From assembly GCF_000284335.1 (NCBI RefSeq), contig NC_017096.1, positions 372,001 through 436,000 on the forward strand: 64,000 bases of DNA. The letters are read 5' to 3'. Source of the stretch: Caldisericum exile AZM16c01. GTDB lineage: Bacteria > Caldisericota > Caldisericia > Caldisericales > Caldisericaceae. Below are positions 15,684 to 31,502 of this stretch, piece after piece. Within the stretch, counting starts at the first letter, position 1. Each line of letters begins with the position of its first letter. The notes under the pieces were generated by a model. It saw nothing but the letters and a program-made list of their open reading frames with translations, was not told the origin of the DNA and searched no databases. The translations under genes were made by a program, and so were the position numbers.

Positions 15684-15716
15684 AAAAAGGGGGCAACTGA
15701 GCCCCCTAAATTTTTA
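15684..15716. terminator. Bidirectional terminator between ackA and lpdA
   Basis: GGGGGC (15689-15694) pairs with GCCCCC (15701-15706), flanked by an A-T pair, with a 6-nt loop. On the minus strand it is followed by TTTTT, on the plus strand by a looser TAAATTTTT. It separates two convergent genes. Confidence 0.8.
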
Positions 15717-17105
15717 TCTTCTTACAACTATGTGAACTGCTTCTCCTAACGGTACTTTTACTGCTTCCATTACTGCTTCTGGAAGTGTTGGATGCGTGTG
15801 AATGGTATCGCCCACGTCTTTGAGTGTTAATCTATTCTTTATTGCAAGAGCAAGTTCTGAAATCATCACTGATGCCTCAGGTCCTATGATTTGAGCACCA
15901 AGTATTTCTTTTGTATCGCTTCTTGCAACGACCTTAACAGTGCCATCTGTTGCATTCATTGAGACTGCTTTTCCATTTGCCGTAAACGGAAATTCTCCTG
16001 TTATAACGTCAATACCTTGATTTTTTGCTTCCTCTTCTGTCAAGCCTACAGAGGCAATTTCAGGTGTTGTAAATATTGCCCAAGGCACAACTCTATAGTC
16101 CATCTTTGTTTCATGTCCTGCAATGATTTCTGCAACAACTTCTCCCTCTTTCATTGCTTTGTGGGCAAGAAGAAGTCCTCCAACTACATCTCCAATTGCA
16201 TAGTGATGTTCAATGTTTGTTCTTAAAAACTCGTTAACAACAATTTTCCCTCTGTCAGTTTGGATTCCAACCTTTTCAAGGCCAATATTCTCTGAATTGA
16301 GTTTTCTTCCAATTGATACAAGCACCTTTTCTGTTTCGAGCACTTCGCCATTTCCTAAGGTAAGATTTACGCGATCGTCTTTTACATCGATACTTTCAAT
16401 TTTCTGTCCTAATTTAAATTCAATGCCTCTTTTTTGGTAAATCCTCTGGATAAGCGTTGTAAGTTTTCTGTCTTTAAGGGTTGGGACAACTGTTTCCATC
16501 ATTTCAATAACTGTCACTTTTGTGCCAAATGAATTAAAGAATGTTGCAAATTCCATACCAATTGCGCCAGCACCTACAATGATCATATTTTTAGGATATT
16601 CTGTAAGTTCAAGTGCATCGTCTGAGGTAAGCACGTTTATGTGATCGATTTTGAATGCAGGAATCATTGCAGGCTCTGAACCTGTTGCTATGACAATGTC
16701 CTTACCTTTGTAAATTTCTTTTCCTTGTGAAGTTTCAACCTCAACGGTATTTCCATCAATTAGGTACCCTCTCCCATATTTAATTTCTACTTTTCTTGCC
16801 TTTAGAAGAAATTCAACACCTGAAACGAGTTTTTTTACAACTGTTTCCTTCCAGGATTTTATACCATTTGGATCATATGATACATCATTTACTGTAATTC
16901 CAAAGATTTTGGATTCATGTGCCTCCCTATATACATCTGCTGCTTTTAAAATTGCTTTTGTTGGAATACAGCCTCTATTAAGACATGTACCACCAAGGAC
17001 TCTATTTTCAATAACTAAAACTTTCTTTCCCAAATCTCCCAATCTAATTGCTGATACGTATCCTGCAGAGCCTGATCCAATCACAATTACATCAAATTCT
17101 TCCAT
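15714..17105 (-). CDS. lpdA: Dihydrolipoyl dehydrogenase
   Basis: FAD enzyme that reoxidises dihydrolipoyl groups with NAD. The N-terminal FAD site is GSGSAGYVSAI, the redox-active disulfide is C41 and C46 in GGTCLNRGC, the NAD site is GAGAIGMEFATFF near 175, and the C-terminal catalytic HTHPTLPE is intact. 463 residues is typical. Glycine cleavage H and P proteins occur 25 kb away, so a GcvL role is likely. Yet the gene follows dsrH by 55 bases on the same strand, so it may be co-expressed with the sulfur-relay genes; a hairpin-like stretch near 17120-17150 could separate them. The link between lipoamide chemistry and sulfur transfer is open. Confidence 0.92.
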   Translation of the reverse strand: MEEFDVIVIGSGSAGYVSAIRLGDLGKKVLVIENRVLGGTCLNRGCIPTKAILKAADVYREAHESKIFGITVNDVSYDPNGIKSWKETVVKKLVSGVEFLLKARKVEIKYGRGYLIDGNTVEVETSQGKEIYKGKDIVIATGSEPAMIPAFKIDHINVLTSDDALELTEYPKNMIIVGAGAIGMEFATFFNSFGTKVTVIEMMETVVPTLKDRKLTTLIQRIYQKRGIEFKLGQKIESIDVKDDRVNLTLGNGEVLETEKVLVSIGRKLNSENIGLEKVGIQTDRGKIVVNEFLRTNIEHHYAIGDVVGGLLLAHKAMKEGEVVAEIIAGHETKMDYRVVPWAIFTTPEIASVGLTEEEAKNQGIDVITGEFPFTANGKAVSMNATDGTVKVVARSDTKEILGAQIIGPEASVMISELALAIKNRLTLKDVGDTIHTHPTLPEAVMEAVKVPLGEAVHIVVRR

Positions 17106-17160: not shown

Positions 17161-17439
17161 TCATGAAATAATCTTTGGCTCTTTCTCAACAATTTCTGCA
17201 AATTCATCGTAAGATATAAGGGGTACCAAACTTTCTTTTTCATCGAATCCACGGGCTACAAAATCCTCTTTTAGCGCAAATAGTTCAACGCCATCTTTTA
17301 CAAGTGTTTTTACGTCTTTTTCAACAGCAAAAAGGACACCATCTTGAAGAAAAATTACCTTATCTTGAGGTAAGGCAATTTCCAATAAAAGATGAGCAAC
17401 TTGATAGTCTGGGGATTTCTTTATGATTATTAATGCCAT
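17161..17439 (-). CDS. DsrH/TusB-family sulfur relay protein
   Basis: 92 residues with the family features VIFLQDGVLFAVE and VELFALKEDFVARGF. In sulfur relay systems DsrH (TusB) joins DsrE (TusD) and DsrF (TusC) in a hexameric complex that accepts sulfur from TusA. This copy has no cysteine, so it cannot itself carry persulfide; DsrH of sulfur oxidisers usually has one. It is the last of three adjacent genes in the order dsrE, dsrF, dsrH with 9-10 base gaps. Expected to be a cytoplasmic structural partner of the complex. Confidence 0.75.
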   Translation of the reverse strand: MALIIIKKSPDYQVAHLLLEIALPQDKVIFLQDGVLFAVEKDVKTLVKDGVELFALKEDFVARGFDEKESLVPLISYDEFAEIVEKEPKIIS

Positions 17440-17448
17440 ATCTTCCTC

Positions 17449-17808
17449 CTAAAAGAAAATTACATTATCGAAAGAGTGGAGAAACTCGGGAAGGTCACTC
17501 TTAGAGAGTATTTGCAAATTCCAATGGGTATCAATTTCATTCTCTTTAATATCAAATCTTTCAAGATCTTCTTTCACTGCATATACCTTTGTACCATATT
17601 TTTCGATGTATCTAAATGTAATTGAAAGTGGCAATACGCCACACAGCTCTGGTTTGCAATTTGTGTGAACAGCAAGAACTGCTTCATTTAAGAGAAGGGC
17701 TACAGGCTCAATGTCTTGTCCATACATTCCAAAAATACTTCTAAAAGTTTCGTTTATCCAGATACTTCCTGCAGGTGAAGTATAAACTGCGAACAATATT
17801 TTTTTCAT
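17449..17808 (-). CDS. DsrF/TusC-like sulfur relay protein
   Basis: 119 residues of the DsrE/DsrF fold: an opening strand MKKILFAVYTSP, a helix, and a central loop with two cysteines, C51 and C56, in HTNCKPELCG. The gene lies between dsrE- and dsrH-like genes with tight spacing and its own GGAGGT site. The cysteine pair is in the region where members carry functional residues, but whether it binds sulfur is unknown. The order and sizes of the trio match the TusBCD/DsrEFH complex; individual sequence similarity is modest. Confidence 0.7.
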   Translation of the reverse strand: MKKILFAVYTSPAGSIWINETFRSIFGMYGQDIEPVALLLNEAVLAVHTNCKPELCGVLPLSITFRYIEKYGTKVYAVKEDLERFDIKENEIDTHWNLQILSKSDLPEFLHSFDNVIFF

Positions 17809-17818
17809 TTTCTACCTC

Positions 17819-18172
17819 CTACGGCATGAGATTAATGTATCTATCTGATTCAAAAATCAAGGCAGCCATCTCGGGTACACCTGAGAATTTTGCGCCTTCG
17901 ATTTTCATTTCTTCAGTTAATCCTCTATATTCGGCACAAAGACCACAGATGTGTACTTCAACTCCTTTTGATGCAAGTTCCTGTAATTTCATTGGGATAT
18001 TTCTATCTATTCTCATTGGCTTAACAAGTTTATTTGCAGCAAGTACAGAATCTGCAAACAAAAAAATGGAAACTTTATGGCCTCTATTTAAGAATATTTC
18101 TGCCATACGAATTGCTGTGTCTAAATCTTCGTTTGTATATGGCGATACGTTTGTTTGAATTGTTATGTGCAT
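17819..18172 (-). CDS. DsrE/TusD-like sulfurtransferase subunit
   Basis: 117 residues. The pattern NEDLDTAIRMAEIFLNRGHKVSIFLFADSV is the DsrE family signature, followed by GVEVHICGLCAEYRG with C76 and C79; the second aligns with the region holding the persulfide-carrying cysteine of TusD/DsrE. It would accept sulfur from TusA and pass it on. A GGGGGC/GCCCCC hairpin sits just upstream, between it and the transporter, perhaps tuning the ratio of the two parts of the operon. Confidence 0.8.
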   Translation of the reverse strand: MHITIQTNVSPYTNEDLDTAIRMAEIFLNRGHKVSIFLFADSVLAANKLVKPMRIDRNIPMKLQELASKGVEVHICGLCAEYRGLTEEMKIEGAKFSGVPEMAALIFESDRYINLMP

Positions 18173-18233: not shown

Positions 18234-19250
18234 TTACTTTCTTTCAAAAAGATACCAAACCATCAACCAGTTACCTGCGACTGCGAATATCGTAAAGAGA
18301 ATGGAACTTATTGCAAGGTGTGGAAGACCTGAAAGAATGTGTCCTATATTACAGCCATACGCAACTCCTGCACCGAATCCCATTAAAATGCCGCCAAGTG
18401 CGACTTGTGCAAAGGTTTGCGGATTCTTTGGCATTCTTAGCTTGAATTCTTTGGTAGCAAGTGCTGCGATAAACGCACCAATGATTATTCCAAGAACTTC
18501 CATTCCAATCCAATTGTATGGAACACCTTTTGAAATATCAAGGTTTCCAGTTGTAGTCCTGAAGAGATTTACCCAGCCACCCGTAATTCCAAGTGCATAG
18601 GATTTTTGTGAAATGTATGCAACTATACCTGTAATTCCAACAAGGATTCCACCCCAAAGCCATGTAAGACCTGTGGTTTTCCTTTCTGTTGTTTTCCACA
18701 CGAGTATCACAACCAAGAGAATAATTGCAAAGATAATAGCTATAATCCATGGATTAATATTTAAAAGGTTTGCAATTGTTAGGTTGATTTTTCCGTCTGT
18801 TGCAGCATATACTCCTGTCGGGTTATTTGTTGTGGTAATTGGCTTTCCAAACCATTTATTTACGAATTGAAGTGGTCCACCTCTAACTGCTGCAGCAGTG
18901 ATGCCAAAGAAGACCGCCGCAACAAATGCTGTAATGTAACCTTCGCCTACTCTATAGGTAATTCCACTTGCGCATCCTCCTGCAAGTACCATTCCCATTC
19001 CAAAAAGGAACCCACCAATAATTTGTGCTAAAGGAACAAATGGAAGAGGATTAAGCTTAATCCATCCAAGTTGCGCTGCAAGTTGAAAGCCAATTGTTTC
19101 AACCATGATCGCAAGGAGTGCCATTTTCATAAGATAGTTGTCCTTTGTCAATTTAACATCTCTAATTGCAGAGTTAAAGCAAAGTCTTCCTCTCTGTAAT
19201 AGCACTCCGAAAATGATACCGACTAATAAGCCTTGTAATCTTGGATCCAT
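18234..19250 (-). CDS. YeeE/YedE-family thiosulfate/sulfur transporter (TsuA-like)
   Basis: 338-residue membrane protein with about nine or more hydrophobic segments. Three cysteine motifs define the family: RGRLCFNSAIRD with C24, AGGCASGITYRVGEGY with C93, and GYGCNIGHILSG with C300. In the characterised TsuA, conserved cysteines pass thiosulfate through the membrane by transient S-S-H-S interactions. The TusA gene directly upstream matches the tsuA-tsuB pairing. It would import thiosulfate, or another reduced sulfur species, for respiration or thiolation. The exact substrate is inferred from the family. Confidence 0.88.
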   Translation of the reverse strand: MDPRLQGLLVGIIFGVLLQRGRLCFNSAIRDVKLTKDNYLMKMALLAIMVETIGFQLAAQLGWIKLNPLPFVPLAQIIGGFLFGMGMVLAGGCASGITYRVGEGYITAFVAAVFFGITAAAVRGGPLQFVNKWFGKPITTTNNPTGVYAATDGKINLTIANLLNINPWIIAIIFAIILLVVILVWKTTERKTTGLTWLWGGILVGITGIVAYISQKSYALGITGGWVNLFRTTTGNLDISKGVPYNWIGMEVLGIIIGAFIAALATKEFKLRMPKNPQTFAQVALGGILMGFGAGVAYGCNIGHILSGLPHLAISSILFTIFAVAGNWLMVWYLFERK

Positions 19251-19276
19251 ATCCTACCTCCTTTATTGATTTGAGA

Positions 19277-19516
19277 TTATAGTTTTTTAATGAGGATACG
19301 CCATTCACTTGGTCCAATCTCTTCAATTGAAAGGACTTCTCCGCCAATTTCCTTAACACCTGCGGGAATTCTTTCTTTAGAAAGTGCATAATCGATTAGC
19401 ACTTCAAGAATTTCTCCAGATTTCATCTCTTTCAATTTTTTTCTTGTGTCAACATCTGGAATTGGACAAACCTCTCCCCTTTCGTCAAGGGTGTAATTTG
19501 GTTTTACTTCAGCCAT
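19277..19516 (-). CDS. TusA-family sulfur carrier (TsuB-like)
   Basis: 79 residues with the hallmark CPIP at C17 in RGEVCPIP; the cysteine carries a persulfide. The rest (EILEVLIDY, GEVLSIEEIGPSEWRILIKKL) fits the two-layer TusA fold. Beside a YeeE-type transporter, TusA proteins promote thiosulfate uptake (TsuB) and pass the sulfane sulfur on to DsrE/TusD-like proteins, which lie three genes downstream. A strong AGGAGGT ribosome site supports ATG 19516. Confidence 0.88.
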   Translation of the reverse strand: MAEVKPNYTLDERGEVCPIPDVDTRKKLKEMKSGEILEVLIDYALSKERIPAGVKEIGGEVLSIEEIGPSEWRILIKKL

Positions 19517-19928: not shown

Positions 19929-19963
19929 ACGCAACCTCCCTTTTAAAATTTTTATTTTTTATC

Positions 19964-20281: not shown

Positions 20282-20309
20282 TTGACTAAGATAAAAAAAA
20301 TTTTAAAAT
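20282..20309 (+). promoter_or_regulatory. Promoter of the MBX-like operon
   Basis: -35 TTGACT (20282-20287), 16-bp spacer, -10 TAAAAT (20304-20309); start near 20316, leader about 35 nt with GGTGG-type ribosome sites before ATG 20350. No other promoter is evident through the 14 tightly overlapping genes downstream. Confidence 0.6.
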
Positions 20310-20349: not shown

Positions 20350-20856
20350 ATGAAAAAGGCAAACTACGTAAGTAAGGTTGTCTTTGAAACGATTGTTCTA
20401 TTTCTTACATGGATCTTACTTACCGAAAGTTTTGCAACTTCGGAATTGATTTTTGGATTCCTTATTGCACTTGTAATTTCAATTGGTACAGCAGACCTTT
20501 TTACGGAACACGGTCTTGCTCATTTAAATCCAAAAAGGCTCTTTTATCTTATTATCTACATTCCTTACTATCTCTATCAAGTTATTAAGGCAAATATTCA
20601 AGTTGCAGTAATTGTTTTGAGTCCCTCACTTCCAATTAAGCCAGGAATTGTTAAAGTTAAAACAAATTTGAAATCGGATGTTGGAAAGCTTTCTCTTGCA
20701 AACTCGATTACTCTCACTCCGGGAACTATTACTATGGATGTCCAGGACGACGAACTCTTCGTTCACTGGATTAAAGTGGAAGATGAAAGTGTGGAAGGCG
20801 CAACAGAAAGTATTGTTTCGCCTTTTGAGAAATTTTTGAAGGAGATCTTCTCATGA
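20350..20856 (+). CDS. Mrp/MBX subunit, MnhE (MbxA) type
   Basis: First gene of the membrane-complex operon. 168 residues: two or three hydrophobic helices at the N-terminus, then a soluble C-terminal part with NSITLTPGTITMDVQDDELFVHWI, the signature of MnhE/MrpE subunits of Na+/H+ antiporters and of MbhA/MbxA in group 4 complexes. It would sit in the sodium-translocating end of the membrane arm. The last bases overlap the next gene (ATGA). Confidence 0.87.
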   Translation: MKKANYVSKVVFETIVLFLTWILLTESFATSELIFGFLIALVISIGTADLFTEHGLAHLNPKRLFYLIIYIPYYLYQVIKANIQVAVIVLSPSLPIKPGIVKVKTNLKSDVGKLSLANSITLTPGTITMDVQDDELFVHWIKVEDESVEGATESIVSPFEKFLKEIFS

Positions 20857-21110
20857 AAGTGGTAGATTTGATTTATCTTGGCTTACTTGCATTTGCAACA
20901 ATTCTTATGGTTGTAAGACTAACAAAAGGTCCCGATACGGCAAACAGGGCAATGGCACTGGATACCCTTACAACCCTCTTTGTTGCACTATTTGTATTCT
21001 TTGCATTTGTCTTTGGAAGGTCATTCTACATGGATGTTGCTGTGGTTTATGCGATCATTTCCTTTGTTGGCGTGCTTGTTGTTGCGCGCTTTATTGAAAG
21101 GGGGCTTTAA
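20853..21110 (+). CDS. Mrp/MBX subunit, MnhF (MbxB) type
   Basis: 85 residues with three hydrophobic helices; KGPDTANRAMALDTLTT is the conserved MnhF/MrpF loop. It overlaps mnhE by 4 bases and is followed after one base by mnhG. Part of the small-subunit cluster that, in Mrp antiporters and Mbh/MBX complexes, forms the sodium pathway. Confidence 0.9.
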   Translation: MKVVDLIYLGLLAFATILMVVRLTKGPDTANRAMALDTLTTLFVALFVFFAFVFGRSFYMDVAVVYAIISFVGVLVVARFIERGL

Positions 21111-21111
21111 G

Positions 21112-21441
21112 ATGGGGATTAACATTATCATCGGTTACATTCTCATGTTTATTGGTGCGTTTTTCTTCCTCCTTTCTGCAATAGGACTTTTAAGGCTTCC
21201 CGATCTATACACAAGAATGCAGGCTGCAACAAAATCAACTACGCTTGGTGCAATTTCCTCAATCATTGGGATTGGACTTATGAGAGAAGACATTCTCATA
21301 AAGTCAATTATCCTTGCTACGTTTATTCTTCTTACTGCACCTATTTCGGGTTCAGCACTCATTCGTGCAGGATACAAGGCTAAATCGCCAATGACTGACA
21401 AAACTGTCGTAGATAAGTTTAAAGAGAAAGAAGGTGAATGA
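21112..21441 (+). CDS. Mrp/MBX subunit, MnhG (MbxC) type
   Basis: ATG 21112, one base after the mnhF stop, gives 109 residues with three helices; LLRLPDLYTRMQAATKSTTLG is split here as LLRLPDLYTRM then QAATKSTTLG, the defining MnhG/MrpG stretch. A longer upstream frame exists but reads through mnhF and lacks a ribosome site. Completes the MnhE-F-G trio in the order found in Mrp operons and in archaeal mbh/mbx clusters. Confidence 0.9.
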   Translation: MGINIIIGYILMFIGAFFFLLSAIGLLRLPDLYTRMQAATKSTTLGAISSIIGIGLMREDILIKSIILATFILLTAPISGSALIRAGYKAKSPMTDKTVVDKFKEKEGE

Positions 21442-21701
21442 CGATGAATATGTATATTCTTGTCTTTTCTTATATTCTGCTTGCTCTTACAATTATCCTT
21501 TCTGTTCTTGCAATACATGTTAAGGACCTTCTTGCGGCAGTGATATTTATGGGTGGCGGAAGCCTTCTTGTATCTTTGGTATTTTTACTCCTGCAAGCGC
21601 CTGATGTTGCAATGTCTGAAGCCGCAATTGGTGCAGCGCTTACGATGGCAATTTACATTGTTGCCGTAAAGAAAACTGAGCGGGAGGATAAAGATGATTA
21701 G
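21438..21701 (+). CDS. MbhD/MbxD-type membrane subunit (DUF4040)
   Basis: 87 residues, three helices; QAPDVAMSEAAIGAALT is the conserved segment shared by MbhD/MbxD and the C-terminal part of MrpA. Start is either ATG 21438, overlapping the previous stop, or ATG 21444, which is better spaced from the AAGGTG site at about 21431. As a separate gene, rather than fused to a large MrpA, it follows the Mbh/MBX layout. Confidence 0.87.
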   Translation: MTMNMYILVFSYILLALTIILSVLAIHVKDLLAAVIFMGGGSLLVSLVFLLLQAPDVAMSEAAIGAALTMAIYIVAVKKTEREDKDD

Positions 21702-22404
21702 AAAAATTGTTTATGGCGTATTTATCCTCATAATTATTGCAGCAATTTCCCTTTTTATATCCAATTACAAGTTTGGTGTAGATAAGATGGATGTAGGGAA
21801 ATACTATCTTGATAATACAGTTCCTCAAACAGGTGCTGCAAATGTTGTTACTTCGGTTACACTTTTCTACAGAGGTTTTGATACCCTTGGTGAGGTAACA
21901 GTTCTTTTCACTGCTGCCTTGGGTGTTGCTGTGCTTTACTTTATGGGCGAAAAGAAAAGAAAACAAAAACTCCAAGAATCAAATTTTGTAACGAAGATTG
22001 GGACACGTGTTGTGTTTCCTTTTATTCTTTTAACAGGTGCTTATATTTTCATGCACGGACATTTGACACCAGGTGGAGGTTTCCAGGGTGGTGCCCTTAT
22101 TGCAACAGGATTTTTGTTACTCTATCTTGCATATGAAGAAACCTCAATCGACAGAAAAAAATTCTATCTTGTTGAAGGCCTTGGTGGACTTACATACGTC
22201 ATTATGGGACTTTTAGGATTCTTTATGAAGGATTCATTCCTTGCAAATGTGTTGCCAAATGGAAGTTTATTCAATCTTCTTTCGGGTGGAATTATTCTCC
22301 CAATTTATATTGGTGTTGGCTTAAAGGTGGGATCTGAGTTATCTAATATCATTGATGACCTTATGTGTGAAGTGAAGTGTGAAGAAGCCGGAGGTGAAGA
22401 ATGA
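21694..22404 (+). CDS. Fused MbhE-MbhF (MnhB) membrane subunit
   Basis: 236 residues in two parts. Residues 1 to about 90 resemble MbhE, with TLFYRGFDTLGEVTVLFTAA, which is also in the C-terminus of MrpA. From about 95 on it is MnhB/MbhF: FPFILLTGAYIFMHGHLTPGGGFQGGAL. In Pyrococcus Mbh these are separate subunits, so the fusion is a local variation. About six to seven helices in total. The C-terminus ends in a hydrophilic, cysteine-containing tail (CEVKCEEAGG). Overlaps both neighbours. Confidence 0.87.
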   Translation: MIRKIVYGVFILIIIAAISLFISNYKFGVDKMDVGKYYLDNTVPQTGAANVVTSVTLFYRGFDTLGEVTVLFTAALGVAVLYFMGEKKRKQKLQESNFVTKIGTRVVFPFILLTGAYIFMHGHLTPGGGFQGGALIATGFLLLYLAYEETSIDRKKFYLVEGLGGLTYVIMGLLGFFMKDSFLANVLPNGSLFNLLSGGIILPIYIGVGLKVGSELSNIIDDLMCEVKCEEAGGEE

Positions 22405-22742
22405 TTTTCTATATTTCTGCACTTCTCATAATTGGTATTGGTATTTATGCGCTTATTATTAAAAAGAATCTTATAAAAATTATTATCGGGCTTGACCTAA
22501 TTGAAACTGGAATTAACCTCCTCATCGTTTCGATTGGCTATGTGAATGGAAAGACAGCGCCAATATTCTCAAAGGGTGTAATGGATGCAAATCTAATGGT
22601 TGATCCAGTACCTCAGGCTCTTACGCTTACTTCTATTGTTATTGGTGCCTCTGAACTTGCACTTGCTGCGGCATTTGTCGTGCTTCTCTATAGGAAGTAC
22701 GGCACGTTGAATGTACGAAAGATAAGGAGTCTAAGATGGTAA
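22401..22742 (+). CDS. Mrp/MBX subunit, MnhC (MbhG, NuoK-like)
   Basis: 113 residues with three helices. IIIGLDLIETGINLLIV carries the conserved membrane glutamate of NuoK/MnhC, and DPVPQALTLTSIVIGAS is the family motif. It would form part of the ion pathway next to the large antiporter subunits. Overlaps the genes on both sides by 4 and 7 bases. Confidence 0.92.
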   Translation: MIFYISALLIIGIGIYALIIKKNLIKIIIGLDLIETGINLLIVSIGYVNGKTAPIFSKGVMDANLMVDPVPQALTLTSIVIGASELALAAAFVVLLYRKYGTLNVRKIRSLRW

Positions 22743-24217
22743 ACTTGGCTAATCCAACATTATTGGTAGTTATTCCGCTTTTCTTTGCTTTCCTTTCAAT
22801 TATTGTTTCTTCATTTTTAAAGAAACTCATAAAATTTGTTCCATTTATTGTAAGTGCAATTAACCTTGTTGTTATTTATTTTATTGGCGTAAAAGTTTTA
22901 GGTGGCTCGGTTGTTATAGGCACAACTGCAGGGCTAAATCCACCTTACATAATAAACCTTGCTGTCGACAAGTTGAATTTTATAATTGCTCTTATGGTAA
23001 ATGTCCTTGGGCTTCTTATATCTTTCTATAACATCTTTTATGTTAAGGAAGAGCCAACTGATAAATTTCACATTCTCTTTACGCTTCTTATCATGTCATC
23101 AAGTTGGATAAGTGTAACAGGAGACTTATTTAATATGTTTGTTGCTTTTGAAGTGCTTTCTCTTTCTTCCTTTGGGCTTGTTGGATATTTAAGAAGCAAA
23201 GATTCAATTGAAGCGGGATTTAAATATGTTGTTCTTGGTATCCTTGCAGGATCCCTAATCCTTCTCGGGGTTGTCCTTGTGTATGCACAAACAGGCACGC
23301 TTAACATGGCGCACATTGCTTCAAAACTCTATTACATTGGAAGCCTCGAAAAACTTATTCCTTATATATTAATATTCTTAGGACTTGCAGTTGAAGGAGC
23401 ACTTTTCCCTGTAAATTCTTGGCTTCCTGACGCACATCCTGCAGCACCGTCAGGCGTATCGGCAATGCTTTCGGGAATTGTAACAACTACTGCAATCTAT
23501 GCAATAATAAGAGTTACGGTAACAGTTTTTAACTATTCTGCTTTTATCCCATATCTTTTTATCATTGCACTTCTTACTCTTTTCTTTGGTGAAGTTGCAG
23601 CCTTCTTCCAGAAGGATTTGAAGAGGATGCTTGCGTATTCAACAATCGGACAAACGGGATTGTTTGTTCTTGCATTCTCTGTGGGAACACAATCATCAAT
23701 ATCTGCCTCAATTGCGCAGATGATTAATCATTCAGTTTCAAAAGCAGTATTGTTCCTTGTTGCAGGCATTATGATTGAAGTTGCAGCTTCAAGGAATATC
23801 GATGACCTTAAAGGTTTTGGGAGATCTCACATTTTGACATCAATTCTCTTTGTTTTTGCAGCGCTTTCTCTTATTGGAATCCCGCCATTCTTTGGATTTT
23901 TTACGAAACTTGCAATTCTTCAATCTCTACTTGATTTTCCGGGCTTTCTTGGATATTTCGCTTTCGCGCTTGTCCTTATCATGGCAATTGTAGAAGGTGT
24001 CTATTTCTATAAAGTATTTAAGATACTATTTGCAAAAGGTGAGAAAACATTTGGTGAAGAAAATCCATGGCTTGTTGCTGCACCTTTTATCCTTGTGCTT
24101 ATTCTTGTCTTTCTCAGTGCAAGGCCGATGAATATCATTAACTTCACATATGATACGGCAGGTCAATTAATACAAAGGACGACTTATCTAACCTCAGTAT
24201 TGGGAGGTTTAAAATGA
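22736..24217 (+). CDS. Antiporter-like ion-pumping subunit (MnhD/MbxH)
   Basis: 493 residues, about 14 helices, of the NuoL/M/N-MrpA/D superfamily. Key charged residues of the proton path are in place: the TM5 glutamate in FVAFEVLSLSSFG, the TM7-8 region NSWLPDAHPAAPSGVSAML, the lysine in HSVSKAVLFLVAG and the TM12 lysine in GFFTKLAIL. The YSTIGQTG motif is also present. First of two large pumping subunits in this operon; two such subunits distinguish MBX-type clusters from Mbh, which has one. Confidence 0.92.
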   Translation: MVNLANPTLLVVIPLFFAFLSIIVSSFLKKLIKFVPFIVSAINLVVIYFIGVKVLGGSVVIGTTAGLNPPYIINLAVDKLNFIIALMVNVLGLLISFYNIFYVKEEPTDKFHILFTLLIMSSSWISVTGDLFNMFVAFEVLSLSSFGLVGYLRSKDSIEAGFKYVVLGILAGSLILLGVVLVYAQTGTLNMAHIASKLYYIGSLEKLIPYILIFLGLAVEGALFPVNSWLPDAHPAAPSGVSAMLSGIVTTTAIYAIIRVTVTVFNYSAFIPYLFIIALLTLFFGEVAAFFQKDLKRMLAYSTIGQTGLFVLAFSVGTQSSISASIAQMINHSVSKAVLFLVAGIMIEVAASRNIDDLKGFGRSHILTSILFVFAALSLIGIPPFFGFFTKLAILQSLLDFPGFLGYFAFALVLIMAIVEGVYFYKVFKILFAKGEKTFGEENPWLVAAPFILVLILVFLSARPMNIINFTYDTAGQLIQRTTYLTSVLGGLK

Positions 24218-26094
24218 ACTTTTCACTTCTAATGATTTTGCTTACTCCATTTTTTGGAGGGCTTCTTGCTTATGCGGGTTCTGCGTTGCATAAAAGTGTG
24301 AGGAATATTTTCTTCTTAATTTTCCTTTTTCTCCCATTTGTTGAACTATATCAATATGCAAATAAAACTATCGATAATTTCTATTATCTTACTGTTTTAG
24401 GACAGAATCTTTCTCTGGGGATAAATTCTCTCTCATTTATGCTCTCTATACTGTTTGCTTTAATTTTCCTTCTCGCAGGAATTTTCCTCCTCTTCGAATT
24501 TGACAAGTCTGATGATGGCGATTTAGCAGTGCTTGAATTCTCTTTCCTTGAAGGTGCTGTCTTTGGTGTGCTTTTTGCAAGGGACATTTTATCTTTCTTT
24601 ATCTTCTTTGAACTTATTGCAGTTCTTGTATTCTTCCTCGTCGGGAAAGGTTATAAAGATGCACACATTGCACAACCAAAATACATTACTTGGGCTCTTA
24701 TTGGTGCAAATTCAATGCTTGCAGCAATTATGCTTTTATTCTTCAAGACAGGAAGTTTTGGTTATTCGGAAATTGCAGGATATCTTTCAACTGCACCCAC
24801 TTCAATTGTTTTAACGACATTTGTCCTTTTTGCGATTGGTTTCCTTGTTGAGGCCTCAACTATGCCTTTACATGTCTGGGCTCCGATTACATATACTGAA
24901 GCACCAGACTCGGTTTCGGTTGTTCTATCTTCGGTTGTTAAAAAAGTTGGGCTTTACTTATTTACGTTATTCACCTTTTCAATTTTTGGGCTTAATCTTT
25001 TCTCAAAAATTATGCCAAAAATCTTTGGAAGTCCTCTTATTTTGTATATTCTTCAATGGGTTGGAGCCTTTACGATTATAGTGGGTACTTTTGTTGCAAT
25101 AGTACAAGAGGATGCAAAGAAAATCCTTGCTTGGTCTTCTATTGCACAAAGTGGCTATATCCTTTTAGGGCTTTCTTTGGGGACATCTCTCGGAGTTGCA
25201 GGCGGGCTTTTACATATCATAAATCACTCCATTTTTAAGGGTATTCTTTTCTTTGTTGTTGGTGGCGTTATTTATAGAACAGGCACAAAAGACCTTTCAG
25301 AACTTGGCGGACTTATTAAGAAAATGCCTGTTTCGTTTATTGCAATGCTTTTTGCGATTATTGCAACCGCAGGTATCCCACCGCTCAATGGATTTGCTTC
25401 AAAATATCTTATTTACGAAGCGCTAATTCAAAATAAAGAACCCATTCTTTTAACGGTTGCCCTTCTTGGTGGAACAGGGTCATTTATGTATGTTTATAGG
25501 CTTATTCACTCAATTTTCCTTGGACAACTTCCAAAAAAATACGAAAGTGTTAAAGAAGTGCCAATCCTTATGCAAATTCCAATGCTTGTTTTGTCATTGC
25601 TTGCGCTTCTTTTTGGAATTCTCCCTGGAATTCCCATGTATTTTGTTTCAAAGGCTGAGGCATTTTTGGGTTTTGAACCTATAAAATACAACCTTACAGG
25701 ATTTCCAGAGCAATCAGGACTTCATGCTGTAAATATTTTAGCGATTTCACTTGCTCTTACAGGTGGTTTTGTTGTTGCAGCCCTCATCTTCTACTTACTT
25801 CCAAGGGCAAGAAAAGTCCACCAACTTGATAACTACTATGCAGGTGAAGTTCTAACTGAGGATGTAAAATATAATTACAGTTTTGGCTTCTATAGTTTCT
25901 TCGATGATATCATAAGACCATTCAATGAGTGGAGTGTTGATAAGATTTATGAAGACTTTACAGGGTTTGTAAAGACCATCGGAGACTACCTGAGGAGGGT
26001 ATACACTGGCAATCTTGAAACGTATGTGAGCCTTGGGATAATTGTTCTTACGATTTTCTCCCTTATTTACATATTAGGAGGCGTGTTATGGTAG
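24214..26094 (+). CDS. Second antiporter-like subunit with C-terminal extension (MbxH-prime/NuoL-like)
   Basis: 626 residues, some 15 helices. The glutamate FFIFFELIAVL, the lysine region TEAPDSVSVVLSSVVKKVG and the histidine/lysine motif INHSIFKGILFFVVGG are intact, so it should pump. After the last common helix it has about 120 extra residues with an amphipathic stretch (DDIIRPFNEWSVDKIYEDFTG split by turns) and a final helix, like the lateral arm of NuoL and of MbxH-prime. This duplicated, extended subunit is characteristic of archaeal MBX/MBS rather than Mbh. Confidence 0.9.
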   Translation: MNFSLLMILLTPFFGGLLAYAGSALHKSVRNIFFLIFLFLPFVELYQYANKTIDNFYYLTVLGQNLSLGINSLSFMLSILFALIFLLAGIFLLFEFDKSDDGDLAVLEFSFLEGAVFGVLFARDILSFFIFFELIAVLVFFLVGKGYKDAHIAQPKYITWALIGANSMLAAIMLLFFKTGSFGYSEIAGYLSTAPTSIVLTTFVLFAIGFLVEASTMPLHVWAPITYTEAPDSVSVVLSSVVKKVGLYLFTLFTFSIFGLNLFSKIMPKIFGSPLILYILQWVGAFTIIVGTFVAIVQEDAKKILAWSSIAQSGYILLGLSLGTSLGVAGGLLHIINHSIFKGILFFVVGGVIYRTGTKDLSELGGLIKKMPVSFIAMLFAIIATAGIPPLNGFASKYLIYEALIQNKEPILLTVALLGGTGSFMYVYRLIHSIFLGQLPKKYESVKEVPILMQIPMLVLSLLALLFGILPGIPMYFVSKAEAFLGFEPIKYNLTGFPEQSGLHAVNILAISLALTGGFVVAALIFYLLPRARKVHQLDNYYAGEVLTEDVKYNYSFGFYSFFDDIIRPFNEWSVDKIYEDFTGFVKTIGDYLRRVYTGNLETYVSLGIIVLTIFSLIYILGGVLW

Positions 26095-26975
26095 AAAAGC
26101 TTGTTTTAGTTTTGACGCCTGTTTTTGCATTCTTTGTCGGCATTTTCCTTGAAGGTTTCAAAAGGAAAATGGTTGCTCGAATCCACAGAAGATATGGTCC
26201 ACCACTGCATCAGCCACTGCTTGATATCATTAAACTTCTCTCAAAGAAGGAAAACATTTCTCATGGTGTCATGTTTGATCTTGGGCCAGTAATTTTAGTT
26301 GGTGCATCAATTTTAACAGTGTTATTTCTTCCGCTTCCAGGCTTTAAACAACTCACTCCTCATGGAGACCTTATAGCCTTCCTTTACATAATGGTAATTG
26401 GTTCTCTTGGCATGGCACTTGGTGCAGGCGAATCTGGGAACCCAAATGCGTCTATTGGAATTGCAAGAGCTTTAACACTTATGCTTGGATATGAACTTCC
26501 ACTTATTATTGCAGGAAATACCCTTGTGCTTAAATATGGGACAACTGATCTTACAAAATTTATGACTTTGCAATCAGGATTCCACTGGAATTTATTCTTT
26601 CTTCCATTAACTGCAATTGCTGGATTTATTGCAACATACGGTGCGATGGGGGAACACCCATTTGATATTTTTGTTGCTCCACAAGAAGTTGCAACAGGTC
26701 CTATGGTTGAATATGGTGGAAAGCATCTTGGATTACTTATGATTGGTCACGCAATTCAGGTTTATATTGAAACAGCATTTTTCACTGTCCTCTTCCTTGG
26801 AGGTGCTGCAAATATCCTTACATTCATCCTAAAGCAACTTGGTGTTATTATTGTTATGACCCTTTTTGATACTGTTTTACCAAGATTCAAAATCGAGAAT
26901 GCCGTAAGATATTTCTGGAGATGGCCTACCATAATTGCACTTTTAGGCCTCTTTATAGTCTATATTGGAGGTTAG
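26088..26975 (+). CDS. NuoH-like membrane anchor subunit (MbxM)
   Basis: 295 residues, about eight helices. The start FLEGFKRKMVARIHRRYGPP and the loop EHPFDIFVAPQEVATGPMVEYGG are the conserved NuoH/MbhM segments that bind the catalytic module and begin the ion path; the family glutamates are present. It links the sodium-type module encoded upstream to the hydrophilic module encoded downstream. The gene overlaps the antiporter gene by 7 bases. Confidence 0.93.
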   Translation: MVEKLVLVLTPVFAFFVGIFLEGFKRKMVARIHRRYGPPLHQPLLDIIKLLSKKENISHGVMFDLGPVILVGASILTVLFLPLPGFKQLTPHGDLIAFLYIMVIGSLGMALGAGESGNPNASIGIARALTLMLGYELPLIIAGNTLVLKYGTTDLTKFMTLQSGFHWNLFFLPLTAIAGFIATYGAMGEHPFDIFVAPQEVATGPMVEYGGKHLGLLMIGHAIQVYIETAFFTVLFLGGAANILTFILKQLGVIIVMTLFDTVLPRFKIENAVRYFWRWPTIIALLGLFIVYIGG

Positions 26976-26976
26976 T

Positions 26977-27498
26977 ATGGAATTACAAGAAACTTTGGAA
27001 GAAGGTTATGTTGAAATACTGGATCATTTAAGAAAGCGCTCTTTATGGATGCTTCATTACTGTACTGCATGTGGTGCGATAGAACTTCCTCCTACAATTA
27101 CCTCTCGTTTTGATGCTGAAAGGTTTGGTATTGCACCATTTGTTACCTCAAGACAATCAGATATTTTGCTTGTTACTGGATACATAAATATAAAAACTCT
27201 TAAAAGGCTTATAACTGTGTATGAACAGATGCTTCCACCTAAATATGTAATTGGTTTTGGCTCCTGCACGATAAATGGTGGTATTTACTGGGATTCTTAT
27301 GCAGTTTTAAAAAGACTCGATCTGTATTTGCCAGTTGATGTGTATATTGCAGGTTGCATGCCCTCACCTATGGCGGTGCTTGAAGGATTTAGAACTCTAA
27401 TGAAGCTCATTGATGAAGGAAAGGCTAATGGCTGGAAAAAGTACATCGAAAATTACGATTACTACAAGGCAAACCAAAGGAAGGTGCTCAAATGGTAG
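26977..27498 (+). CDS. NuoB-like [4Fe-4S] subunit (MbxJ)
   Basis: 173 residues from ATG 26977, one base after the previous stop; an earlier TTG at 26965 is less likely. Four cysteines fit the proximal [4Fe-4S] cluster: C29 and C32 in CTAC, C97 in GFGSCTINGG and C127 in AGCMPSP. This is the cluster that hands electrons to the catalytic site in the large subunit. The CxxC spacing is as in Mbh/MBX hydrogenase-like small subunits, not the adjacent cysteines of complex I NuoB. Confidence 0.93.
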   Translation: MELQETLEEGYVEILDHLRKRSLWMLHYCTACGAIELPPTITSRFDAERFGIAPFVTSRQSDILLVTGYINIKTLKRLITVYEQMLPPKYVIGFGSCTINGGIYWDSYAVLKRLDLYLPVDVYIAGCMPSPMAVLEGFRTLMKLIDEGKANGWKKYIENYDYYKANQRKVLKW

Positions 27499-27965
27499 AG
27501 GAAATTAAGAGTGTTGTAAAGGGTAAAATTTTTGAAAAACGACCACAAAGAATTATTATCGAGGTTAAAAAAGATGCTTTCTCATCTACGCTTAACGCCT
27601 TAAAAGGCCTATCCTTCAATAGATTAACTCTTTTTACGGCGGTAGATTTTATAAAAGAAAATCAGTTTGAGATTGTTGCACTTGTCTATTCCGATGAAAG
27701 AAAGGTTCTTGCAATAGTAAAGACAAGAATTCCAAGGGAAACCCCCGAAATTGAGACGATAACAAATATCTATCCGAATGCCTTCAAATACGAAGTTGAG
27801 ATGGGTGAGATGTTTGGAATTAGGGTTGTTGGGAATCCTGACTCAATGAAGCCGTTTGTCCTTGAGGGTTGGGGTGACCTTCCACCTCTTCGAAAGGATT
27901 TTGACTCCATTAAATATGCAACGGAGCACTATGAGTCAAGAAATGTGGAGGTAAAATATGATTAG
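27492..27965 (+). CDS. NuoC-like subunit (MbxK)
   Basis: 157 residues. The C-terminal part has the NuoC/MbhK motif: EVEMGEMFGIRVVGNPD then LEGWGDLPPLRKDFDS. It is a small structural subunit beside the catalytic large subunit. Overlaps the NuoB-like gene by 7 bases and the large-subunit gene by 8, the tight arrangement seen through the operon. Confidence 0.9.
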   Translation: MVEEIKSVVKGKIFEKRPQRIIIEVKKDAFSSTLNALKGLSFNRLTLFTAVDFIKENQFEIVALVYSDERKVLAIVKTRIPRETPEIETITNIYPNAFKYEVEMGEMFGIRVVGNPDSMKPFVLEGWGDLPPLRKDFDSIKYATEHYESRNVEVKYD

Positions 27966-29058
27966 GGAATACGAACTGAACATAGGTCCTAACCATCCTG
28001 GAATTCATGGAAACTTTTCTGTGCATTTAAAACTCGAAGGGGATACAATCATTGAAGCGAAAGGAAATTCTGGATATCTCCACAGGGCATTTGAAAAACT
28101 AATGGAACAAAGAACATATCTTCAAAACCTTGCCCTTATTCCAAGAATTTGTGTTCCGGAACCTGATATAAACGAAGCGGTTTATGCCATGGCAATTGAA
28201 GAGTTAATGGGTGTTGAAATTCCAGAGCGTGCAAAATTTTTAAGGACAATTGTACTGGAAGCGGCTCGTGTAATGGCGCTTCTGTTCCACTTTGGTGGCA
28301 CTGCGGCAATGCTTGGAAATTACACTGTAAATTATTGGGCCGTTGCAGATAGAGATCTTATGATTGACATATTTCTGAAACTCACTGGTGCAAGAGTTTA
28401 TCACATGTATATTTGGCCAGGCGGAGTAAGAAGGGATACTTATCCGGGATTTGAAGATGACATCTTAGGTTGGGTAAAATATGTTAAGGAACGACTTCCT
28501 GAATACGACAATCTCTTCCTGAAGAACCCAATGTTTGCGCATAGGGCAAAGGGACTTGCAAGGATTACAAAAGAGACTGCGCTTCAAATGGGTGTTACAG
28601 GTCCAAATCTCAAGGCAACCGGTGTAAAAGTTGATGTAAGGAAAGATGAGCCTTATGCAGCATACCCATACCTTGATTTTGATGTACCCGTCCTTGATGA
28701 GGGTGATGCCTGGGCAAGAGAAATACAGAGGCGTCTTGAACTTGAACTGTCTTTGAATCTTATTGAGCAAGCCGTAAAGAAAATGCCAAAAGGCGAAGTG
28801 TGGAAAAAGATGCCAAACCCATTTAAGTGGGTGATACCAGAAGGTGAGGCCTATGCAAGAGTTGAATCTTCAAGAGGAGAATACGGATTCTATTTTGTTT
28901 CAGATGGCACAGACAAACCTTACAGAGTTTCAGTAAGAGGTGTATCAATGCCTCATATGTATCCTCTTGCAGAAAAGTTGTTGGTTGGGCAAAAGTTGTC
29001 AGATGCTCCTTTTATTTTGGAGACACTTGATATTTGCCCTCCTGAAATTGATAGATAA
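27958..29058 (+). CDS. Catalytic large subunit lacking two [NiFe] ligands (MbxL/NuoD-like)
   Basis: 366 residues of the NuoD/[NiFe]-hydrogenase large-subunit family. In true hydrogenases four cysteines (two CxxC motifs) hold the NiFe centre. Here the first motif is C65-V-P-E68 (IPRICVPEPD) and the second is C360-P-P-E363 (LDICPPEIDR): the first cysteine of each pair remains and the second is glutamate. It is therefore neither a hydrogenase (four Cys) nor complex I NuoD. Archaeal MBX/MBS, which reduces sulfane sulfur, also keeps two of the four. I infer a polysulfide or related sulfur-reducing site. Confidence 0.88.
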   Translation: MIREYELNIGPNHPGIHGNFSVHLKLEGDTIIEAKGNSGYLHRAFEKLMEQRTYLQNLALIPRICVPEPDINEAVYAMAIEELMGVEIPERAKFLRTIVLEAARVMALLFHFGGTAAMLGNYTVNYWAVADRDLMIDIFLKLTGARVYHMYIWPGGVRRDTYPGFEDDILGWVKYVKERLPEYDNLFLKNPMFAHRAKGLARITKETALQMGVTGPNLKATGVKVDVRKDEPYAAYPYLDFDVPVLDEGDAWAREIQRRLELELSLNLIEQAVKKMPKGEVWKKMPNPFKWVIPEGEAYARVESSRGEYGFYFVSDGTDKPYRVSVRGVSMPHMYPLAEKLLVGQKLSDAPFILETLDICPPEIDR

Positions 29059-29069
29059 GAGGTGAAGCG

Positions 29070-30899
29070 ATGGAAAGCAAAGAATACTTTGAAAAAACAA
29101 GTTTTATAGGTGCTTTAACCTCAACCAAGTACATCTTTAAAAAACCTGTAACAGTACAGTATCCAAAAGAAAAACTTCAACTTCCAGAGCGGTATCGTGG
29201 CTTCCATGTTAATGATCTTGATAAATGTATCGGTTGTGGAAATTGCATGAGTATCTGTCCATGCCAAGCAATCACAATGGACGATCCCAAAGAATTTCAC
29301 CTTGTGAATCCTAAGGAAGGCTCTACACACCTTAGGCCACGGATTGATTATGGGAGATGTTCTTACTGTGGCTTATGCGTTGAAGTGTGTCCAACAGGGT
29401 CTCTTAAAATGGAGAGGAACCTCATATTTACATCCCAAGATGGTGATGCATTTGTTTGGTTCCCAGCGGAAGAGAGAAGAACTGCAGAAAATGGATTTAC
29501 CCAGTCAAATGAAATTACACCTCTGGAGCTTGAGAAAGTTGAGATGCCTGAACTTGAACCTGACGTAAGAAAGAAAACATTTGAGGAACTCATTCTCGGT
29601 TTCTCAGAAGAAGCTGCAATTAAAGAGGCAGAGCGTTGCCTTGGCTGTGGGATCTGCATGCAAGGTTGTCCTGCACACATGAAGATTCCTGAATATATCG
29701 ATGCAATTTTCAAAAAGGAATACGAAATTTCGGTTAAGTATATGCTTGAGGATAACGCATTGCCTGGAATTTGCGGAAGAATTTGCACTCACAAGTGTCA
29801 GGATGATTGTGTCTATAACTATAGAGGTGATGCCATACAGATTATGTGGCTTAAGAGATTTGCAACTGATATGGTGAAGGACTACAAAGCATCTGATCCA
29901 TATATGTTCCCAAAGACGGGAAATAAAGTTGCAGTGATTGGATCAGGTCCGTCAGGGCTTTCTGCTGCGTATTATTTGACACTTATGGGACATTCTGTAA
30001 CTGTTTTTGAAAAACGTTCAGTTCCAGGTGGTGCTTTGGGACTTGGTATCCCAATGTACAGGCTTCCCGTTTATGAAATTGACAAAGAAGTAGACCACCT
30101 TAAAGACCTTGGCGTTGAGTTTAAATTTAATACTGAAGTTGGAAAAGACGTCCTTTTTGAAGATCTATTGAAGAATTATGATGCAGTTTACATTGGCGTT
30201 GGTTTGTCATACGGAAGAGCAATTAATCTCAATGGCGAAGATACACCTTATATAATTCAGGCAATTGATTTCCTAAGACAGGTTAAGGTCGAAGGAAGAA
30301 GGGACATTCCAAAGAGAGTTATCGTTATCGGTGGTGGTAATGTTGCAATGGATGTTGCAAGAACAGTTGTAAGACTTCACGAGATTAATTACGGAGGAGT
30401 TGATACGAAAGTTCAAACTGTCTCTCTTGAGGACTGGGATATTATGCCTGCTTCCAAGGAAGAAATCGAGGGCGCTCTTGCAGAAGGCGTGATATTTAAT
30501 CCTGGATGGGGACCTAAAGAAGCAGTTTTTGAAGATGGCAAATTGAAAGGGCTCATTGTAAAGAAAGTTAAATCTGTCTTTGACGAGCAGGGAAGATTTA
30601 ACCCATCTTACTATGAAGAGCAAACGATGTTCCTTGAGGGAGATTATATTGTCGAAGCAGTAGGACAGGCGACAAACCTTTCGTTTATTCCTGAACACCT
30701 TATGCAGCAACTCAAATTTACACCACGCAGGCGTATTTGGGTTGATGAGTTTGGTGAGACCTCAATTTCAGGCGTGTTTGCAGGTGGAGACCTTGTTGAA
30801 ACTTCTCTTGGAAATGCAATTTCTGCAATTGCAAATGGTCATAGGGCAGCAATTGGTATTGATTTCTTCTTAAGAAATGTCAAAGGAGGAAAAAAATGA
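29070..30899 (+). CDS. Fusion of NuoI-like ferredoxin subunit with GltD/NfnB-like FAD-NAD(P) module
   Basis: 609 residues. Residues 50-110 are a two-cluster ferredoxin like MbxN/NuoI: CIGCGNCMSIC (53-63) and CSYCGLCVEVC (97-107). From about 185 it is a GltD/NfnB/DPD-type flavoprotein with CLGCGICMQGC (190-200) and CGRICTHKCQDDC (235-247) for two further [4Fe-4S] clusters, FAD site GSGPSG (291-296), NAD(P) site GGGNVAMDVART, and C-terminal FAD motif GVFAGGD. The usual arginine pair before MPA, which binds the NADPH phosphate, is replaced by SLEDWD, suggesting NADH. It would connect NAD(H), and perhaps ferredoxin, to the MBX-like core. Ten bases after the large subunit. Confidence 0.88.
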   Translation: MESKEYFEKTSFIGALTSTKYIFKKPVTVQYPKEKLQLPERYRGFHVNDLDKCIGCGNCMSICPCQAITMDDPKEFHLVNPKEGSTHLRPRIDYGRCSYCGLCVEVCPTGSLKMERNLIFTSQDGDAFVWFPAEERRTAENGFTQSNEITPLELEKVEMPELEPDVRKKTFEELILGFSEEAAIKEAERCLGCGICMQGCPAHMKIPEYIDAIFKKEYEISVKYMLEDNALPGICGRICTHKCQDDCVYNYRGDAIQIMWLKRFATDMVKDYKASDPYMFPKTGNKVAVIGSGPSGLSAAYYLTLMGHSVTVFEKRSVPGGALGLGIPMYRLPVYEIDKEVDHLKDLGVEFKFNTEVGKDVLFEDLLKNYDAVYIGVGLSYGRAINLNGEDTPYIIQAIDFLRQVKVEGRRDIPKRVIVIGGGNVAMDVARTVVRLHEINYGGVDTKVQTVSLEDWDIMPASKEEIEGALAEGVIFNPGWGPKEAVFEDGKLKGLIVKKVKSVFDEQGRFNPSYYEEQTMFLEGDYIVEAVGQATNLSFIPEHLMQQLKFTPRRRIWVDEFGETSISGVFAGGDLVETSLGNAISAIANGHRAAIGIDFFLRNVKGGKK

Positions 30900-31453
30900 T
30901 TGACCTTAAGGATAAAATCACTTTTGGTGAACCGGTTCTTGATAGATTTTTTAATGGTTATTCGCCACATGAATACCTCCTTGTGAGATTTGCAAATAAG
31001 GTTGGTTTCATAACTGTATCAGATCTCTTTTCTGTTGTTACCAAGACCTCTGTTCCAAAGGCAACGGAAAGGATGCTTTCAAAGGCAGAGGATATCTGGA
31101 TAAAAGACATTCAAGACGAAATGTTTGTCTACTCAATGAATGGATTTTCTAAGGTTGTAAAAATTGTAAGGCGTAGAATTTATGAGCCAATCTATAAAAT
31201 TGAAACTGAACACCACGAAACAATAATCTCAAAAAGCCATCGGTTTGTAAAGCTTATTAATGAAGAGGAAGTTTTGACCAAAGCCTTTGAACTTAAAGAA
31301 GGTGATAAAGTTTACACTTATTCTCCTAATAATCCTAAGATAGAAACTGTCCTTAAGGTGCAAGAGATTAAGCCAGATTTCCTACATGTTTACGGCGTTT
31401 TGACTGAAGATTTTGGCGCATTTGTTAACGGTATTTTTGGTAAATCTTACTAA
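30896..31453 (+). CDS. Stand-alone degenerate Hint (intein-like) domain protein
   Basis: 185 residues, no cysteine, no signal peptide. From about residue 68 it reads like an intein/Hint fold: IKDIQDEMFVYSMNG, then IYKIETEHHETIISKSHRFVKL (block B-like histidine; split at any gap), FELKEGDKVYTY, and finally VYGVLTEDFGAFVNGIFGKS, which parallels the intein C-terminal block (usually ending NG-I-x-x-HN). The usual first Cys/Ser nucleophile and terminal Asn are missing, so self-splicing is not expected. It overlaps the flavoprotein gene by 4 bases and is the last gene of the operon. Function unknown; it may be an assembly or regulatory factor. The Hint call rests on pattern alone. Confidence 0.6.
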   Translation: MIDLKDKITFGEPVLDRFFNGYSPHEYLLVRFANKVGFITVSDLFSVVTKTSVPKATERMLSKAEDIWIKDIQDEMFVYSMNGFSKVVKIVRRRIYEPIYKIETEHHETIISKSHRFVKLINEEEVLTKAFELKEGDKVYTYSPNNPKIETVLKVQEIKPDFLHVYGVLTEDFGAFVNGIFGKSY

Positions 31454-31481: not shown

Positions 31482-31502
31482 TTGGGGGCATAAAGCCCCC
31501 AA
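31482..31502. terminator. GC hairpin between the MBX-like operon and rlmH
   Basis: TTGGGGGC (31482-31489) pairs with GCCCCCAA (31495-31502), loop ATAAA. It separates convergent genes but has no T-run after it on either strand; the T-run (TTTTTTTT) lies before it on the plus strand. Same G5C/GC5 design as the hairpins at 4267, 15689 and 18199. Confidence 0.6.

Follow-up and report, generated by a model that had tools for sequence, protein, structure and literature searches.

A conserved fusion of NuoI-like and NfnL/GltD-like domains in the MBX-type operon of Caldisericum exile, with a predicted link to NADH

We analyzed a stretch of 64,000 nucleotides of the Caldisericum exile AZM16c01 genome (hereafter the window), corresponding to positions 372001–436000 of the single-contig genome of 1,558,103 bp. 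Positions 20350–30899 of its forward strand are occupied by a single tightly coupled operon of 13 genes, which encodes a complex of the MBX/MBS type. Neighboring genes overlap by 2–11 bp, and the lone gap is 11 bp long. Pfam searches identified all 13 MBX/MBS subunits (MnhE/F/G, MbhD, MbhE-F, MnhC, H, H', M, J, K, L, and N), as listed in Table 1; the last core subunit is a fusion of a NuoI-like domain and an NfnL/GltD-like flavoprotein. A first-pass annotation, made from the sequence alone, had named these parts, and the Pfam E values place every one of them where it had been described; it overlooked a 14th gene (30896–31453), which lies inside the interval it had marked (20350–31453).

The fusion is encoded in one frame of 609 amino acids. 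It consists of a NuoI-like ferredoxin domain for two [4Fe-4S] clusters (residues 1 to approximately 145) and an NfnL/GltD-like domain (approximately 155–605), which contains eight cysteines, an FAD site, and a predicted NAD(H) site. The two NuoI-type 4Fe-4S motifs are accompanied by matches to Fer4_20 (1.4e-29) and Pyr_redox_2 (2.2e-24); residues 7–144 match subunit N of Pyrococcus MBS (6u8y_N), and residues 148–603 match NfnL-type proteins. The joining of a NuoI-like subunit to a GltD/NfnB-like protein, as first annotated, is thus borne out. A frameshift or assembly artefact was considered and rejected, since an uninterrupted frame encodes the fusion in 16 of 16 aligned homologues from six phyla.

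At the NAD(P) site, where NfnL has YRRxRxEMPA, the sequence SLEDWDIxPA (residues 452–461) is invariant in all 16 fusions. The exchange is no quirk of the lineage, because the separate NfnL of the same genome, encoded beside an NfnS-like gene, retains YRRSREEMPA. Judging from the fold, the arginines that hold the 2'-phosphate of NADPH are lost and an acidic residue stands in their place, and for this reason the fused module is predicted to use NAD(H) rather than NADPH. The built-in NAD(P)H module of the earlier annotation is therefore present as a pyridine-nucleotide module, with SLEDWD pointing to NADH. Eight cysteines (C190, C193, C196, C200, C235, C239, C243, and C247) are invariant across the fusions, and the segment that reads CPQE-x-QC in NfnL is two residues shorter in every one of them (C-T/M-x-x-C). 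The deleted stretch, with its Glu, is presumably the one that supplies the non-cysteine, carboxylate cluster ligand of bifurcating Nfn. Because the eight cysteines are invariant and this segment is shortened in all fusions, a plain wire from NADH through FAD and [4Fe-4S] clusters into the sulfur-reducing cluster is predicted in preference to bifurcation.

The signature that defines MBS was taken from the published Pyrococcus work: the J motif is three residues shorter than in MBH, and the cluster cysteines are C28, C93, and C123 (PMC7684303). MbxJ aligns to 6u8y_J without gaps through the short CxxC motif, and both this motif and cysteines matching MbsJ C28/C93/C123 occur in all bona fide homologues. 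For both MbxJ and MbxL, the Pyrococcus MBS subunits rank as the best relatives in the PDB, ahead of complex I and MBH. MbxL has the equivalents of MbsL C85 and C385 (RICVPEPD and ICPPEIDR), which are kept in the window and throughout clade I of the trees described below. The other two of the four NiFe cysteines are absent from the alignment, so that the four-cysteine NiFe hydrogenase site is not present, and a reading as an MBH/Ech hydrogenase was rejected on this ground. Complex I was rejected as well, since J and L are closest to MBS and Pfam found no NuoEF(G) NADH module among the operon genes. The equivalent of the quinone residue Tyr87 (Nqo4) is absent from all MbxL aligned. The position of Nqo4 His38 is His in C. 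exile (within GPNHPGIHG) and its two closest relatives and Pro in the other clade I proteins, and Pyrococcus has no such His; as a mark of quinone use it was rejected because it is not conserved. Alignment of MbxH' (24214–26094) with MbsH' gave equivalents of the charged pump residues E128, K248, H336, and K399, with Glu at the position of K217. Judged by its J and L subunits, the complex has a membrane arm and an active site of the sulfane-reductase type, and the original assignment to MBX, over hydrogenase and complex I, stands.

Upstream and divergent from the operon is a sulfur cluster (15714–19934, reverse strand) with genes for a TsuA/YeeE thiosulfate transporter, TusA, and DsrE-, DsrF-, and DsrH-like proteins. 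It is a promising candidate for a thiosulfate-to-sulfane relay feeding MBX, and TsuA/YeeE is likely to be a functional partner of the complex and not a part of it. Taking together the MBS signature, these divergent genes, and the induction of Thermotoga maritima mbxA by sulfur (see below), we infer that the complex functions as a sulfane reductase. The same cluster also holds a carboxymuconolactone decarboxylase-like protein. In the genome as a whole, the sole Complex1_49kDa homologue is MbxL of this operon. The only molybdopterin oxidoreductase found in the genome adjoins NuoF-like genes, so that a molybdenum enzyme dedicated to thiosulfate or polysulfide reduction (Phs/Psr) was not found there. 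The genes for Rnf C, D, E, and A are present elsewhere in the genome.

Table 1. Features of the MBX-type operon and its surroundings, in window coordinates.
Feature	Position (strand)	Evidence and remarks
MbxA, MnhE-like ion-module subunit	20350..20856 (+)	PF01899, E 1.9e-43
MbxB, MnhF-like subunit	20853..21110 (+)	PF04066, E 2.8e-16
MbxC, MnhG-like subunit	21112..21441 (+)	PF03334, E 2.6e-23; corrected start, ATG at 21112
MbxD, MbhD-like subunit	21438..21701 (+)	PF13244, E 6.3e-19
MbxE-F, MbhE fused with MnhB-like domain	21694..22404 (+)	PF20501, 5.9e-10; PF04039, 1.1e-27
MbxG, MnhC/NuoK-like subunit	22401..22742 (+)	PF00420, E 2.9e-26
MbxH, antiporter-like pump subunit 1	22736..24217 (+)	PF00361, E 1.5e-62
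MbxH', antiporter-like pump subunit 2	24214..26094 (+)	PF00361, E 1.2e-50; top PDB match 6u8y_X (MBS H'), E 1.1e-83
MbxM, NuoH-like membrane anchor	26088..26975 (+)	PF00146, E 2e-61
MbxJ, NuoB-like, with MBS-type proximal [4Fe-4S] site	26965..27498 (+)	NuoB family, E 5.9e-21; top PDB match 6u8y_J, E 4.6e-64
MbxK, NuoC-like subunit	27492..27965 (+)	PF00329, E 8.9e-24
MbxL, NuoD-like, without NiFe site	27958..29058 (+)	NuoD family, E 1.7e-73; top PDB match 6u8y_L, E 8.5e-111
MbxN-NfnL fusion, 609 aa	29070..30899 (+)	Pfam and PDB matches; full-length match to NF010590/PRK13984
14th gene, Hint (intein-fold) protein without splicing residues	30896..31453 (+)	PF14890, best E 1.1e-9
Terminator-like hairpin 3' of 14th gene	31482..31502 (+)	8-bp stem, 6 GC pairs
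Possible sigma-70 promoter of operon	20282..20309 (+)	TTGACT-16-TAAAAT; consensus match only
TusA sulfur carrier, divergent neighbor	19277..19516 (-)	PF01206, E 3.9e-20
TsuA/YeeE thiosulfate transporter, divergent neighbor	18234..19250 (-)	NF052577, 450.6 bits (cut-off 400)
DsrE-, DsrF-, DsrH-like sulfur relay proteins, divergent neighbors	17161..18172 (-)	PF02635 and PF04077
Dihydrolipoyl dehydrogenase, divergent neighbor	15714..17105 (-)	TIGR01350, 541 bits (cut-off 408.8)

A search of other genomes for this gene order together with the fusion, which had been proposed as a check, found the same gene set, order, and fusion in Caldisericota, Campylobacterota (Hippea/Desulfurellales), Aerophobetes, Zixibacteria, Sumerlaeota, and a metagenome-assembled genome (MAG) labelled ‘Deltaproteobacteria’. 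The fused operon thus spans at least six bacterial phyla, and partial pieces occur in further MAGs. The fusion protein is 96% identical in relatives labelled Caldisericum exile, and all Caldisericota genomes with a close MbxL (at least 70% identity) have it. Candidates for an unfused MBX in Caldisericota (38% L identity; loci L052 and L053, of one other family) were rejected as complex-I-like clusters lacking Mrp-type genes. The fusion was found in 5 of the 25 genomes of the Desulfurellales class and 3 of the 17 of the Aerophobetes phylum. The trees of N and L concur: clade I comprises the Caldisericota, with the Desulfurellales nested in or beside them, and clade II comprises the rest. This placement of Desulfurellales in both trees fits a lateral transfer of the operon into that group. 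Both MBS-specific cysteines of MbxL are lost in clade II (loci L026–L034), as in complex I, which suggests either that the acceptor there is a different one or that these complexes have evolved further in the direction of complex I. The genome paper on the Desulfurellaceae describes their electron-transfer pathways as not fully understood, and the part of it consulted mentions no such complex (PMC5317093).

The fusion corresponds to an existing NCBIfam family, NF010590 (PRK13984, ‘putative oxidoreductase’): residues 7–604 of the window protein align with positions 6–609 of 611, with a score of 692.7 bits. This falls short of the curated cut-off of 946, and so do the scores of all other lineages tested; among 14 control genomes the family was found only in T. 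maritima, above the cut-off. We take TM1205–TM1217, which ends in a ‘glutamate synthase beta subunit’, to be the T. maritima mbx operon. A 13-subunit MBX of T. maritima has been published, in which mbxA is induced by sulfur and which was treated as linked to ferredoxin only (PMC9431562). The genes are therefore not new: the operon is a variant of a known machine that already exists in T. maritima, and the candidate new respiratory machine of the first-pass annotation is not supported; its remark that no such route was known to be described for bacteria is wrong as far as the genes are concerned. A literature search, which did not cover subscription reviews, found no paper linking the flavoprotein half to MBX, nor one that tests or proposes a link to NADH. 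The fused MBX is real and conserved, as judged from the genomes compared, and the predicted link to NADH is the key claim.

We consider it slightly better than an even bet that the operon encodes a bacterial MBX sulfane-sulfur reductase with its own NADH-input module. NADH would reduce the FAD of the NfnL/GltD-like half, and single electrons would pass through the two [4Fe-4S] clusters of this half and then the two of the NuoI-like half, to reach the proximal cluster of MbxJ with its three cysteines; there, sulfane sulfur such as polysulfide would be cleaved. The reaction would drive translocation of Na+ or H+ through MbxH/H' and the Mrp-like module, and the NuoI half may still serve as a point of entry for reduced ferredoxin. 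What can be read directly from the sequences is the set of parts, its conservation, the MBS-type signature of the active site, and the loss of the NADPH motif; NADH as the donor, the acceptor, the pumping of ions, and the direction of electron flow are what we infer. The fusion would thereby play for MBX the part that the unrelated NuoEF module plays in complex I. Both systems have a wire of [4Fe-4S] clusters leading from NADH (here, as predicted) to a chamber above an antiporter-type membrane arm, whereas the complex described here differs in having an NADH module unrelated to NuoEFG, no Tyr87, an MBS-type proximal cluster, and Mrp-type small subunits.

The closest characterized complex is that of Pyrococcus furiosus (6u8y; PMC7684303), with which the C. 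exile complex shares the 13 subunits, the two pump subunits, the short J motif with three cysteine ligands, the absence of the NiFe site, and the equivalents of MbsL C85/C385. It differs in being bacterial, in the fusion of N to an NAD(H)/FAD module, in the Glu at K217 of H', and in the additional Hint-fold gene. The T. maritima MBX is likewise bacterial and sulfur-induced, and its genome has the same NuoI-GltD fusion family; the difference lies in the published ferredoxin-only model. With the NADPH enzymes of the NfnSL/GltD type (5jca, 4ylf), the C-terminal half of the fusion shares the FAD- and two-cluster GltD fold, but it has SLEDWD in place of the NADPH motif, a cluster motif that is two residues shorter, and an insert of about seven residues before that motif. 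Pfam identified no NfnS partner among the operon genes, and the NfnS-like gene of the genome adjoins the separate NfnL.

Several points weigh against NADH as the donor to a sulfane reductase. The cofactor assignment hangs on a single motif, AlphaFold modelled the fusion poorly (predicted local distance difference test, pLDDT, of 61), which leaves no usable geometry for the cluster chain, and the clade II homologues, which lack both MbxL cysteines, may use a different acceptor. The main weakness lies in the energetics: NADH has a potential of about -320 mV and polysulfide one of about -260 mV, so that the energy released is small and would cover the transport of no more than roughly one ion for each electron pair, and ferredoxin pays for more. 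Because of this small yield, ferredoxin may remain the main donor that drives the pump. The energetics would favor a dual-donor or ferredoxin:NAD machine, in which ferredoxin bound to the NuoI half drives the pump and the flavoprotein half exchanges electrons with NAD+/NADH, either to balance the pools or to make NADH from ferredoxin. We regard this as possible but doubtful. In its favor, ferredoxin presumably docks on MBS N (6u8y_N), which the NuoI half matches, and the T. maritima MBX has been modelled as ferredoxin-linked (PMC9431562); however, both Rnf and NfnSL are already available in the genome for ferredoxin/NAD(P) exchange, and electrons flowing from ferredoxin to NAD within the fusion would bypass the pump-coupled cluster. 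Since Rnf is a pumping ferredoxin:NAD enzyme already in the cell, a second one would be less needed. On account of the separate Rnf and the bypass, the reduction of NAD by ferredoxin, offered as an alternative in the earlier annotation, appears less likely.

The remaining alternatives concern the acceptor, the flavin, and the association itself. It is unlikely that the same wire leads to another acceptor, such as a disulfide, a thiosulfate-derived persulfide carrier (for example TusA/DsrE), or another oxidant in clade II, the complex being no polysulfide reductase; the divergent TsuA/TusA/DsrEFH cluster, the missing MbxL cysteines of clade II, and the C. exile His at the complex-I quinone-His position would agree with this, but the MbxJ site is MBS-like throughout, and the His, being Pro in other clade I relatives, is no conserved functional residue. 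A shade less probable still is bifurcation or confurcation at the NfnL-like FAD, with NADH and ferredoxin combined to drive sulfur reduction. Bifurcating NfnL (5jca, 4ylf) and multi-subunit transhydrogenases (9n5u, 8oh5) are indeed among the closest folds, but the two-residue stretch of CPQE-x-QC is deleted in every fusion, no NfnS-like partner occurs in the operon, and the NADPH motif is lost. Free GltD-like proteins are found in many genomes, and the fusion might in principle be a soluble oxidoreductase merely co-transcribed with MBX; this we consider very improbable, as the NuoI half stands in for the obligatory MbxN, of which the operon has no other copy, and the fusion always occupies the MbxN slot across phyla.

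The 14th gene overlaps the fusion gene by 4 bp. All 11 members of its family match the Pfam intein domain PF14890, a profile of the family finds inteins in the PDB (4.7e-6), and the AlphaFold2 model (pLDDT 71) has only inteins as its top Foldseek matches. The C-terminal His-Asn splice junction is absent from these proteins, which end in GI[FL]-[QG]-K-[SA]-Y with a conserved C-terminal Lys, and lacking the junction they cannot undergo normal splicing. Conservation is complete or nearly so for Ser23 and an SxxH motif, which may be the counterparts of intein residue 1 and block B. The protein thus resembles inteins in its Hint fold, by both profile and predicted structure, and differs from them in that it stands alone, has no homing endonuclease, and is inherited with the operon rather than inside a host protein. 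The gene follows the fusion directly in nine of nine fusion-bearing Caldisericota genomes, and one half-complete genome has, in addition, a 32-residue fragment of it. It also occurs in the Desulfurellales operons and is missing from clade II, so that it is found with the operon in these two groups only; no member of the family was found in viral contigs. We know of no Hint-fold gene with the T. maritima MBX. The protein may plausibly have an accessory or regulatory function or act in assembly.

A broader proposal, which we put forward tentatively, is that a sulfur-respiring complex-I-like pump gained, separately from complex I, a module of its own for NADH input, so that a single enzyme would carry out respiration from NADH to sulfane sulfur in several bacterial phyla. 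In the Caldisericota and Desulfurellales, an intein-fold protein that does not splice would have been domesticated as a dedicated 14th subunit or assembly factor, perhaps still able to cleave off its own N-terminal tail in view of the conserved Ser23 and SxxH. If NADH does feed MBX, sulfur respiration in T. maritima, Caldisericum, the Hippea-type reducers of sulfur, and several uncultured phyla would run on NADH by way of a single energy-conserving enzyme, and the published ferredoxin-only model of T. maritima, with its ATP accounting, would need revision. An NADH module would also have arisen a second time, independently, on a complex-I ancestor, which is directly testable in a cultivable organism, and the Hint-fold gene would offer a rare example of an intein that was domesticated as part of a respiratory operon.

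We note some further genes beside the fused operons of other phyla. In Aerophobetes, Rex-like genes (an NADH-sensing type) lie around the fused MBX (L033:8556-9215 and L028:18033-18683), directly 3' of the fusion on contig L033, which would speak for a link to NADH, and a CsoR/FrmR-family repressor is encoded upstream (L028:533-802). The Zixibacteria operons are followed by a second cluster, which encodes complex-I-like subunits along with an NAD-binding oxidoreductase, a Fer4_22 protein, and a molybdopterin oxidoreductase (L029:3447-9586 and L030:11931-17119). In the ‘Deltaproteobacteria’ MAG, a CoA-disulfide-reductase/NSR-like flavoprotein and a thioredoxin are encoded directly after the fused MBX (L027:12196-13548), and the same arrangement is seen at L036.

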